Origin: Pirellulales bacterium
GTDB taxonomy: Bacteria; Planctomycetota; Planctomycetia; Pirellulales; Pirellulaceae
DNA: 41,103 nucleotides
Assembly (NCBI GenBank): GCA_022451045.1
Contig: JAKUOW010000015.1
Coordinates: 1 to 41,103 of the forward strand
Reading direction: 5' to 3'
The position numbers were made by a program, and so were the translations under genes. Shown here one piece after another: positions 27,931 through 32,486 of the stretch; positions within the stretch are counted from its first letter, which is position 1; each line of letters starts with the position of its first letter. Below the pieces are notes generated by a model. The model searched no databases, was not told the DNA's origin, and worked only from the letters and a program-made list of their open reading frames with translations.

Positions 27931-28326
27931 CTACCAGGGTGCACGTAGGTAGTAGACGCCAAACTGGCTGGAGTTTTGGGGCCAACGCGGAGTTGCATGG
28001 TACGGTCCGTAACCGGAGACGTTTGCGCCCGGATAGACGAGATTGTATTGGTGACCCAACGGCATGATGATGCTTTTGGATACACCCCAGCCATATTGCC
28101 GCGAAGTGTTGGCGTTTGGTGGGACAACCAGTGCAACGGGTGCACCGTATGCCTGATGCATGAAATTACCATTCCAAGGAGTCACAGCTGCCATTTGAGC
28201 CTGCATCTGTACTTCTTGATTTCGAAACGGCAGCAGACGTTTTCTGGCTTCAGCATTCTCGCTGCTACCAGTGACCAGGATCATTGCCAAGGCTAGTAGG
28301 GCAATCTTCTTGAGCTTGATGAGCAT
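27931..28326 (-). CDS. Small secreted hypothetical protein
   Basis: Signal peptide MLIKLKKIALLALAMILVTGSSENAEA; paralogous N-terminus to the neighbouring ORF. Confidence 0.6.
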   Translation of the reverse strand: MLIKLKKIALLALAMILVTGSSENAEARKRLLPFRNQEVQMQAQMAAVTPWNGNFMHQAYGAPVALVVPPNANTSRQYGWGVSKSIIMPLGHQYNLVYPGANVSGYGPYHATPRWPQNSSQFGVYYLRAPW

Positions 28327-28381: not shown

Positions 28382-28792
28382 CTACCAGTAGATAACACGG
28401 GTACGTGTCATGCCACGACCACCATCGAAATAGTGATGGTACGTGCGGTAGTGCCGATACAGGAATTCATGCGGTAGGAATGGTTGGTACGTCGAATAAA
28501 CGTGACCAACCGTTGGCGGCACAGCGCGTGGTGCGGTGTAAATCTGTGCGGGCATTCCGCCACCTTGAACCGGTGCATAGTAGTTATAGAACAGTACGGG
28601 AGGCGTCGGGGCTTGATATGGTCTCTGGTGACTTGGTGCTTGAGCAGCAACAGGAGCATCCTGTTGTTGCACTTGTTTGACCGCGGTTGTGCGAAAGCGA
28701 AGAAGTTTTGGGTTCTTTGCATCTACTTCTTCTGAGCTCGTGATGATCATGGCCAGAGCGAGTACTGCGCTAACTGTGATTCTAGCTGTCAT
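28382..28792 (-). CDS. Small secreted hypothetical protein, Pro/Tyr/His-rich
   Basis: MTARITVSAVLALAMIITSSEEVDA signal peptide then ...YSTYQPFLPHEFLYRHYRTYHHYFDGGRGMTRTRVIYW. Confidence 0.6.
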   Translation of the reverse strand: MTARITVSAVLALAMIITSSEEVDAKNPKLLRFRTTAVKQVQQQDAPVAAQAPSHQRPYQAPTPPVLFYNYYAPVQGGGMPAQIYTAPRAVPPTVGHVYSTYQPFLPHEFLYRHYRTYHHYFDGGRGMTRTRVIYW

Positions 28793-29255
28793 CGATTCAT
28801 TCCCTCGTTTGAAATGCCCTATATAACGAATAGTCCCTGCCACACTTAACGCTACCACTTAACAATCATGCACTCAGAATAGAATCTATATACACGACTG
28901 CCTTGATATGGTGCATCAGTTAGTAATTCGGTTTATTCCGACTATTCGGGTGAGTAATTGTGACCCCATTTCTCTAAGAATGGGCAGTTCTGTCATACGT
29001 GTGCCAAAGTCGGGTGTGCATCGCTCTGCATAACCGATATAATCGTCACGCTTTACCATAAACGACGTTGGATATGAGTATTATTAATTCTCAACAGGCA
29101 CGAAGCGAGCCTTAAATGCAGGGCTTGCAAAGCCCGCGGTAGCATCATCAGATTAGATGCGGTTTACGGCAAAGAAGTTGTCAGCCAACGCCTTAAAGCA
29201 TCAATGGATTTAGTGCACGATTTTCGTGCGATGTAGGTAACGGAGTACATAGCCA

Positions 29256-31289
29256 TTGGCAACGGTATCTAAAAACGGCACCTCGAAACGACGATCAACA
29301 GCGCAGTCGATGGCCGCAAACCAGCGGTCGATTTCGGTCTCTGAGTTTTTCGCAAAAAACCGACATTTGCTCGGTTTTGACAACCCGCGCAAAGCTTTGT
29401 TGACGACCGTCAAGGAAGCAGTGGATAACTCGCTTGACGCATGCGAAGAAGCGGGCATCATCCCGGAAATCTGGGTGGAGATCATCCAGGTAAAAGAGAA
29501 TCGATTCGAAGTATCGATTCAGGACAACGGCCCCGGGATCCTAAAGAAACAGATTCCTTTAATCTTTGGAAAACTTTTGTACGGTTCAAAATTTCATAGA
29601 TTGAGAATGAGCCGTGGTCAGCAGGGTATTGGAATCAGTGCTGCTGGTATGTACGGGATGCTCACCACAGGTAAGCCCGTCAAGATTGTCTCCAAGATCT
29701 CGATCAGAAAGCCGGCTCACTATTACGAAGTTCAAATAGATACCAAGACAAATAATCCGGAGATTCTAAATGGCCGTGGTAACGGCTTGGATATTCCAGC
29801 GGGTGAAAAGGGTCGCAACATCATGGAATCCAAGAAGATCCAATGGAATAGCTTTTATCCAGCAACAGAAGATGAAGAGCCCCAAGAAGTTCGCAGTGGC
29901 ACTCGGGTCACCATTGAACTGGAAGCTAAACACCAGCGTGGTCGCGGCAGTGTCGATGAATATCTGGAACAAACAGCAATTGCCAACCCCCACGTAACAC
30001 TGCACTACAGAGATCCCGATCAGGAATGGCGAACTTACGGTCGCGCGACAGAGGAATTGCCACCGGAGCCGAAAGAAATCAAACCTCATCCTTACGGCGT
30101 TGAAATGGGACGACTTGTCACCATGCTCAAGGAAATGAAGGAAGGTACGATTTCACAATTCCTGACCCAGTCGTTCACGCGGGTAAGCCCTGCGGTTGCC
30201 CGGAGGATTTGTGAAGGTGCAGGTATCAGCACGCGTGCCGGTGTAAAGAAAATCGGCAGGGATGAAGCAGATAAGATCTACCATGCCATCCAGGAAACCA
30301 AGATAAAGGCGCCGTCGACAGATTGCATCTCACCGATCGGTGAAGATCTGTTGATTAAAGGTTTACATCAGGTTGTACCGGCAGAATTTTATGTTGCAGC
30401 TACCCGACCACCATCGGTATATCGAGGTAATCCGTTTCAGGTTGAAGTAGCCCTGGCTTATGGTGGCCAAAGCGTAGTACAAAAAGTGTCGGCGGAAGTT
30501 CTGGACCAGCTACTCGATCAAACTGATTCGAGGACGATTCGACAATTCCTTGTGAACACATTTGATGGCATTGGTAATGACGCTGCAGACAAGATTATCA
30601 AGGAAGCTGACTTTGGATCGCGCCAATCACCAACGAAACTGAATGCAGAACAACGCGAGACTCTACATCATGCCATGAGGAACGTAAAGCTCTCCGACGG
30701 GCAGGGAATTCAGGTCTATCGATATGCGAATCGTGTGCCTCTGCAGTTCAAGATGCGGGATTGTGCGATCACCCAAACGGTCATGGGTACGAATTGGCGC
30801 AGCTATGGTCTTTCACAGTCTCGTGGCAATCTGCCATCTGGCCCTGTAACGCTTATGGTGCATCTGGCTAGTGTTTGGGTACCGTTTACAAGTGAATCCA
30901 AAGAAGCAATCGCGGCTTATCCTGAAATTGAAAAAGAGATACGGCTGGCTCTTCAAGCGGTTGGTCGTAAACTCGGACTGTTCCTTAAACGCCGGCAAAA
31001 GGTAAAGCAAGAAGGTGAACGAAGAAGCGTCTTTATGCGATATCTTGCAGAAGTTGCTGGCGCCGTTTCAGATCTGAACGGATCAGATCGCGAGGAAATA
31101 CACAGCAATCTGTTGCGCGTAGCAAATCGCGTGACCAAAGTAGCAGATACAAAGTTCGATGAGAGTGGCAATAAGATTCAGGAAGAAGAGAGCTTTGGCG
31201 ACAACGTGTTAATTGTTGAACAGGGTGATCCGGAAGAAGCGCTCAAGCAGCGTTTATTGGAAGGTAACCCACAACAAAAACTATTTTGA
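29256..31289 (+). CDS. top6B: DNA topoisomerase VI subunit B
   Basis: TTG start; [101 protein letters not shown]-type topo VI-B. Confidence 0.95.
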
Positions 31290-31340
31290 TAAAAGTCACC
31301 GGTGCAATTGAGAATGAACAACCGGTTTTGGTAAAGACGA

Positions 31341-32486
31341 ATGGCAAAAAAGAAGACGACAACAGCGAAAACAGCTCGCATGGCAAAACTTAATGCGCGC
31401 GATAAGAAGACGCTTAATTCACTCGTGGGGATGGCCGACGATGTGGAACGTTTCGCCTCTCGCGGTCGTGCTCCACACATCGAGATACCGTCTCGATCAC
31501 TGTCGAATGTAAAGTACAACAAGAGCCGCAAGATCATTGAGATGGGCTCTTCCAAGAACAAACGGGAATTGTTCAACCTGTCTCAAGCCCGTACCTATAT
31601 GCAGACCTTACTGGTTGGCTCTGGATGTAAACAATTAATCGAGCAGGGTAAGACAACCAGCATTCGTGGTCTCTACTATTTGCTAAAGCACACCATCGAA
31701 GGTACCCGTGAAGAGACATTTGTAGACCAGGGTGACTGTGACCCGGTTATCGAAGATGTTGAAGTCGCATTAAATGCTCTTCGAGAGGAGTTGCACGTAT
31801 ACGCATCAAATCGTGGTGCGATGGTTGGCAACATTGTTGTAAATGACAACGGTGATGAAATCGACTGTAGCCGAATGGGTTCTGGTGGTTATGCGATTCC
31901 CTCTATCGTGGAAGAGGAAGTTATGCAATTTGTTAGCTGTAAAGCTGACTTCGTACTGCATGTGGAAAAAGACACTGTTTGGCGGCGATTTAACGAAGAT
32001 AAATTCTGGCAAACGCATAACTGCATTCTGACCCACGGTAATGGACAGCCGCCGCGCGGTGTTAGGCGATTACTGAATCGATTGAATAACGAATTGAACC
32101 TGCCGGTGCTCTGTTTGCTCGATAATGATCCTTGGGGGTATTACATTTACAGCGTGATCAAACAGGGATCGATTAACCTCGCATACGAGTCCAAGCGAAT
32201 GGCAATCCCGGGGGCCCGCTTTATAGGATTGCGAAGTATTGACTATGAGCGGTGTGATCTAAATCCAAGTGTGACGATTAAGCTCACCGATAACGACATT
32301 AAGCGCGCGAATCAAATTGCCAATTACCCGTGGTTTGAACCAAAAAAGCGCTGGCAAAAAGAAATCAAGAAACTTCTCAGCAATGGTTTCAAACTTGAAG
32401 TCGAAGCGCTCATTAGCAAAGACATCAGTTACGTTACCGAAGAGTATGTGCCCGCTCGCCTCGCTGATCAGGACTTCCTTGATTAA
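31341..32486 (+). CDS. top6A: DNA topoisomerase VI subunit A (Spo11-like)
   Basis: IRGLYYLLKH (catalytic Tyr region), GQPPRGVRRLLNRLNNELNLPVLCLLDNDPWGYYIYSVIKQGS (Toprim DxDxxG); 51 nt downstream of top6B. Confidence 0.93.
   Translation: MAKKKTTTAKTARMAKLNARDKKTLNSLVGMADDVERFASRGRAPHIEIPSRSLSNVKYNKSRKIIEMGSSKNKRELFNLSQARTYMQTLLVGSGCKQLIEQGKTTSIRGLYYLLKHTIEGTREETFVDQGDCDPVIEDVEVALNALREELHVYASNRGAMVGNIVVNDNGDEIDCSRMGSGGYAIPSIVEEEVMQFVSCKADFVLHVEKDTVWRRFNEDKFWQTHNCILTHGNGQPPRGVRRLLNRLNNELNLPVLCLLDNDPWGYYIYSVIKQGSINLAYESKRMAIPGARFIGLRSIDYERCDLNPSVTIKLTDNDIKRANQIANYPWFEPKKRWQKEIKKLLSNGFKLEVEALISKDISYVTEEYVPARLADQDFLD

Follow-up and report, generated by a model that had tools for sequence, protein, structure and literature searches.

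A topoisomerase VI with a predicted second H2TH domain probably takes the place of topoisomerase IV in Pirellulales

The window analyzed here is a stretch of 41,103 nucleotides (contig JAKUOW010000015.1 of assembly GCA_022451045.1) from a marine planctomycete, represented by a metagenome-assembled genome (MAG) of 4.59 Mb in 398 contigs that is 91% complete. At positions 29256-32486 it carries top6B and top6A, the genes for the two subunits of DNA topoisomerase VI (topo VI). It is quite probable that this pair encodes a working Pirellulales topo VI that serves as the chromosome decatenase, replacing topoisomerase IV (topo IV), and that its B subunit contains an additional H2TH domain, specific to this clade, which arose from the protein's own H2TH. 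The decatenase role is our inference. A tree placed the host in Pirellulaceae, Planctomycetota, and the closest named record for Top6A was 'Rhodopirellula sp. SAT12' (98%).

Genes for gyrase and topo IV were called by profile searches (PF00521 for the GyrA/ParC type, together with gyrB homologues), and the samples comprised 60 genomes of the order Pirellulales and 294 genomes across Planctomycetota. An earlier note on this DNA had supposed that topo VI is retained beside gyrase and had proposed looking for gyrase and topo IV. Gyrase was indeed present in the window genome, with one PF00521 gene (gyrA, on contig C51) and one gyrB (on contig C377); parC and parE were not found there by the profile searches, and this absence of topo IV had been overlooked. 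Within the order, the topo VI-A Toprim domain was detected in 51/60 genomes and topo VI-B in 52/60; a contig end truncates top6B in genome G039, which first seemed to have neither enzyme and was counted as topo VI-positive. Each of the 52 topo VI genomes had a single GyrA (split over two contigs in G009), and neither ParC nor ParE was found in any of them. The other eight genomes, all without topo VI, each contained a ParC-like gene, which was a second PF00521 gene in G011, G013, G023, G026, G028, and G036, the sole PF00521 gene in G008, and a fragment in G034. These ParC-like proteins were 33-36% identical to the GyrA of the same genome and had no first-blade GyrA box. A loose pattern had matched them as GyrA-box carriers, but inspection showed that the complete proteins keep only the last-blade TSRGG motif. 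A second, ParE-like gyrB homologue (640-669 aa) was present in seven of the eight ParC genomes, and none was seen in G034 (72% complete). Topo VI and topo IV are therefore mutually exclusive within the 60 genomes, each of which has exactly one of them (52:0 against 0:8; Fisher p = 4e-10, a value that ignores phylogeny). This order-level exclusion, tested on 60 genomes, goes beyond a previous survey that used one species per family (PMC11302465).

When a tree of gyrA only was used to ask whether the topo IV genomes form one clade, the approximately unbiased (AU) test was undecided (p = 0.41), and rpoB and rpoC were therefore added. On the concatenated rpoB+rpoC+gyrA species tree, where the topo IV genomes include G331, they were interleaved with topo VI genomes, and parsimony required at least 4 changes. 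A single topo IV clade was rejected both for all eight on the tree (p-AU 5e-43) and for the core six in one larger group (p-AU 0.0015). Given that the topo IV genomes are not one clade, the exchange must have happened repeatedly. Pirellulaceae ParC proteins formed one clade that branches as the hosts do, and the interleaved topo VI genomes G006, G010, and G025 likewise had Top6A proteins that grouped as their hosts do (94/87). Because the ParC and Top6A trees track the host tree where this is testable, both enzymes seem to have been passed down by inheritance, with reciprocal losses afterwards. The simplest reading of these trees would be an ancestor with both enzymes, of which each descendant kept one; repeated transfer between relatives could also have produced the pattern.

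Across the phylum, where topo VI was found in 133/294 genomes, two or more PF00521 genes were present in 16 of the 133 topo VI genomes versus 85 of the 161 genomes without topo VI (Fisher 5e-14), such that the phylum-wide exclusion is a partial tendency. The earlier note had regarded topo VI as a sporadic oddity kept beside a normal enzyme set. That picture does not fit these counts, and topo VI is the normal state in Pirellulales. Its presence there was already known, since topo VI with gyrase and without topo IV has been reported in Pirellulaceae, Lacipirellulaceae, and Thermoguttaceae (Allen & Maxwell 2024, PMC11302465). The note had itself said that its claim would fall if the subunits belonged to a widespread, already characterized bacterial clade or if active-site residues were missing; the former is largely the case, given that report and the order and phylum counts, and the latter is not. 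Neither the replacement of topo IV by topo VI across the order nor the duplicated H2TH domain described below had been recognized.

In Top6B, the canonical H2TH domain comprises residues 282-351 (30099..30308, + strand), as supported by a Pfam NFACT_N stretch (267-348) and by helices in an AlphaFold2 (AF2) model. The predicted second H2TH domain, found in the Pirellulales-type clade only, comprises residues 411-480 (30486..30695, + strand) and lies in the first beta-hairpin of the transducer. Because of about 73 extra residues in this hairpin, the Pfam transducer model is broken into two segments wherever a topo VI genome of the order has a complete B subunit. The distance from GG to RYANRVP was 84 residues in every measurable Pirellulales-type B and at most 11 in the other B proteins measured, which lack the insertion (11 in L115, L116, and L243; 4 in L241, the second topo VI of G035). 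The same insertion has been described in Pirellula staleyi as a 'unique alpha-helical bundle' that juts into the central cavity (PMC11302465). When a profile of residues 404-492 was compared with the H2TH region of the same protein by hhalign, a match with a probability of 98.4% was obtained (E 5.9e-15, 70 ungapped columns, 24% identity), compared with at most 2.3% in column-shuffled controls (n=10). PF00416 also matched at 433-477, below its cut-off. In the AF2 model of Top6B (mean pLDDT 76.5), the helices of the insertion (413-422, 428-435, 441-451, and 464-476) repeat the four canonical H2TH helices (284-293, 299-306, 312-322, and 335-347) with a displacement of exactly 129 residues. Moreover, when an insert-only AF2 model was submitted to Foldseek, the best PDB matches were topo VI-B H2TH domains (rmsd 1.3-1.8 Å over ~71 residues), and next came the classic H2TH proteins, namely S13 ribosomal proteins and the Fpg/Nei/MutM glycosylases. 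Based on the profile match, the helix offset, and the predicted fold match, the insertion is identified as a second H2TH domain, an apparent duplicate of the protein's own. We found no open-access PMC paper identifying the bundle as such.

In Methanosarcina mazei topo VI, the first H2TH domain holds on to the arms of the gate DNA and links its bending and cleavage to the closure driven by ATP, and a KGRR loop senses crossing DNA (PMC5922973, PMC13040014). The canonical H2TH of the window protein keeps R309 and K349 at two of the M. mazei contacts, and T304 (T in 43/53 sequences) replaces R263 at the third. The second H2TH domain has the sequence-profile similarity and the predicted fold of the family, but not the basic DNA-contact residues at the M. 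mazei positions (R263 and K268 correspond to V433 and G438), a difference that bears on DNA contact and not on fold. Placed in the transducer hairpin, a second H2TH would probably alter the hold on DNA crossings or arms; its role may lie in touching the transported duplex or may be structural. There is a nearly even chance that the bundle serves only as a spacer in the structure or as a docking site for proteins, with the H2TH fold but no contact to DNA. Such a function would agree with a net charge of about 0 and with V433 and G438 at the contact positions, but R426 and R456 are invariant, residue 429 is R or K in 53/53 sequences, the GxG hairpin is invariant, and H2TH folds usually bind nucleic acids (PMC5922973). 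More speculatively, these enzymes may make up a topo VI subclass ('double-H2TH') whose paired second H2TH domains, projecting into the cavity for the transported (T-) segment, would grip the T-segment or the crossing and make a better decatenase, serving order-wide as sole substitute for topo IV, with the two enzymes swapped repeatedly after a period of coexistence; we consider this extended proposal possible, although rather unlikely.

By the mechanism of the family, ATP-driven closure of the B dimer would bend the gate duplex and let the A subunits cut it, and a second duplex would then be passed through the cut. In Pirellulales, gyrase would supply negative supercoils and topo VI, as the dedicated decatenase, would separate sister chromosomes and fill the position taken by topo IV in most bacteria. 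Topo VI is a preferential decatenase (PMC8837201), and the M. mazei enzyme is stated, as an unpublished result, to complement parE(ts) in E. coli (PMC11302465). Several points weigh against our proposal. The independent exchanges are few (about 4), the second H2TH carries no net basic charge (median 0 versus +5 for the first), and no biochemistry was found in the literature for a bacterial topo VI with this insertion. Because the MAG is 91% complete, the lack of parC and parE in the window genome rests mainly on its relatives, which include several closed, single-contig genomes. The 16 phylum genomes with topo VI and at least two PF00521 genes, some of which may be split genes, indicate that coexistence is possible outside the order. 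Gyrase by itself also decatenates to some degree, and topo VI may thus be auxiliary.

If topo VI were an accessory enzyme (for repair, recombination, or conjugation-type breaks), gyrase would carry out decatenation and the anticorrelation with topo IV would be accidental. We regard this as improbable. The same 16 genomes would be in keeping with it, as would the finding that gyrase-only life is common (at most one PF00521 gene in 76/161 phylum genomes without topo VI); however, no genome of the order lacks both enzymes once G039 is allowed for, the exchange occurred several times, and the GHKL and Toprim sites are fully conserved, unlike those of meiotic Spo11 partners. Membership in the meiotic Spo11/topo VIB-like class, in which B has no H2TH and a degenerate GHKL site, was also rejected, given that GHKL is intact in the window protein and H2TH occurs twice.

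The locus itself is as the earlier note had outlined it: the coordinates of a complete pair in B-A order were borne out, both reading frames are intact, and all catalytic residues checked are present, from the GHKL motifs of B to the tyrosine region and Toprim DNDPWG of A. top6B (29256..31289, + strand; TTG start, 677 aa) and top6A (31341..32486, + strand; ATG start, 381 aa) are separated by a 51-bp spacer (31290..31340, + strand), and with the two genes on the same strand they are probably a single transcription unit. No frameshifts or internal stops were found in either gene. Top6B scored 686 bits against NF003218 (cut-off 274) and 499 bits against TIGR01052 (cut-off 380.7), and Top6A scored 559 bits against NF003333 (cut-off 465). 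The Pfam domains were HATPase_c and Topo-VIb_trans in Top6B, and TP6A_N, Topo_VI_alpha (beta domain), and Toprim in Top6A. The GHKL ATP-binding motifs of Top6B (N-box E54-N58, G1 DNGPGI 90-95, and G2 119-128; 29415..29639, + strand) show little or no variation across 41 relatives, in which K549 (30900..30902, + strand), aligned with the M. mazei ATPase lysine K435, is also invariant. By alignment, RGR 228-230 (29937..29945, + strand; R228 in 52/53 and R230 in 50/53 sequences) is the counterpart of the M. mazei KGRR loop, the crossing sensor (function from PMC5922973). WRSY 514-517 (30795..30806, + strand) corresponds to the transducer 'WKxY' DNA-contact motif (role from PMC5922973), with W514 and Y517 invariant and R515 in 52/53 sequences. 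In Top6A, the winged-helix active site RGLYY 109-113 (31665..31679, + strand) contains R109 and Y113, both invariant in 91 sequences, and Y112, replaced by F in 13/91; Y113 is presumably the catalytic tyrosine. The Toprim metal site (E209, D261, and D263 of DNDPWG; 31965..32129, + strand) is invariant in the same 91 sequences.

The features of type IIB topo VI are thus found in the A subunit (winged-helix tyrosine, Toprim E..DxD) and in the B subunit (GHKL ATPase, H2TH, transducer), and the two are encoded jointly, adjacent in the window. Across the order, each genome with Top6A also has Top6B, though unlinked in several; the genes lie apart in the single-contig genomes G019 (by 0.7 Mb) and G052 and at many of the loci L042-L109, and a B-A operon is therefore not obligatory. 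From the sequence we infer that the locus product is a working A2B2 type IIB topo VI of the Pirellulales clade.

Among known systems, the Pirellulales topo VI of P. staleyi, Thermogutta terrifontis, and Lacipirellula parvula (PMC11302465) belongs to the same clade and is not another enzyme. It shares with the window the order, gyrase, the lack of topo IV, and the helical bundle beside the B transducer, which was left unidentified there and is read here as a second H2TH. M. mazei topo VI (2q2e, 9o8p, 9o0g; PMC13040014, PMC5922973) likewise has GHKL, H2TH, transducer, and WKxY in B and a winged-helix domain and Toprim in A, but it has a single H2TH and lacks the insertion that would lie between AYGG and RFANRVP. 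The AF2 model of Top6B matched 9o0g_B of M. mazei with E 6.9e-50 (38% identity over the model), and by sequence Top6B scored 458 bits (E 5e-136) against M. mazei Top6B versus 271 bits against that of Saccharolobus shibatae. For Top6A, S. shibatae (2zbk_A) gave 253 bits (E 4.7e-74) versus 165 bits for M. mazei. S. shibatae topo VI (2zbk) is therefore the closest solved relative of the window A subunit, whereas its B subunit, with one H2TH, is more distant than that of M. mazei; this discrepancy possibly reflects uneven rates, or possibly different origins. The Pirellulaceae topo IV (ParC/ParE), found in genomes without topo VI, has the same proposed role but a type IIA fold with an unrelated catalytic subunit architecture.

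In the Top6A tree, the window copy fell inside the insertion-bearing Pirellulales clade (support 100/100). Topo VI is archaeal in origin (PMC11302465), but a recent horizontal transfer from an archaeon or an assembly contamination is exceedingly unlikely and was rejected on flanking synteny and order-wide distribution, given a 98% identical copy with the same flanks in an independent MAG (L033), the carriage of topo VI by relatives throughout the order, and the nesting of the window copy within Pirellulales. A phage origin was rejected, with no match among 50,697 phage records, as was plasmid carriage, for which the only matches were on three haloarchaeal megaplasmids. The sole IMG/VR match (L243, IMGVR_UViG_3300037657_000197; 60% identity) encodes a full topo VI without a second H2TH and adjoins a transketolase gene; this contig, filed as viral, looks bacterial. 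A function shared with the downstream acetyltransferase and thioesterase genes was ruled out, as the neighbors are not conserved. Upstream of top6B lie two short ORFs, 27931-28326 (-) and 28382-28858 (-), without Pfam matches. Homologues of these were seen at 42 of the top6 loci fetched, with a biased composition possible; besides the near-identical L033, identities were 44-62% among the best matches listed.

Other topo VI lineages were also encountered. A second, distinct lineage of topo VI-A is present in other planctomycete families (loci L114, L115, and L121), and its affinity in the tree is with Methanocaldococcus jannaschii and not with the Pirellulales type. Beside its Pirellulales-type enzyme, G035 has a second, different topo VI without the insertion (contig 96, L241), which may be foreign because this MAG has 9% contamination. 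Outside the phylum, the topo VI of six Acidobacteriota MAGs (L055, L057, L061, L076, L087, and L097) formed one clade inside Pirellulales (100/100), which suggests a single inter-phylum transfer, and that of a Myxococcota-labelled MAG (L064) also fell inside Pirellulales. The Acidobacteriota enzyme carries the double H2TH. Each of these seven genomes contains a single PF00521 gene, whose product has a first-blade GyrA-box-like motif; this is compatible with the replacement idea, but no more than that. The topo VI representatives in the figure legend of Allen & Maxwell 2024 (PMC11302465) do not include Acidobacteriota.

The role of topo VI in bacteria was left open by that study ('further work will be needed'). 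The enzyme itself was already known and is common in the order; what is added here is that topo IV and topo VI have repeatedly replaced one another, and that the clade-specific bundle is recognized as a second H2TH. Closely related genera that have either topo VI or topo IV, and in our sample never both or neither, amount to a natural swap experiment, and this pattern makes the proposal that topo VI is the decatenase here testable in cultured Pirellulales. With the duplicated H2TH, the question of how DNA is held by type IIB enzymes gains a concrete structural variable. Finally, lineages that rely on topo VI would be expected to differ in their response to topo IV-directed versus topo VI-directed drugs.
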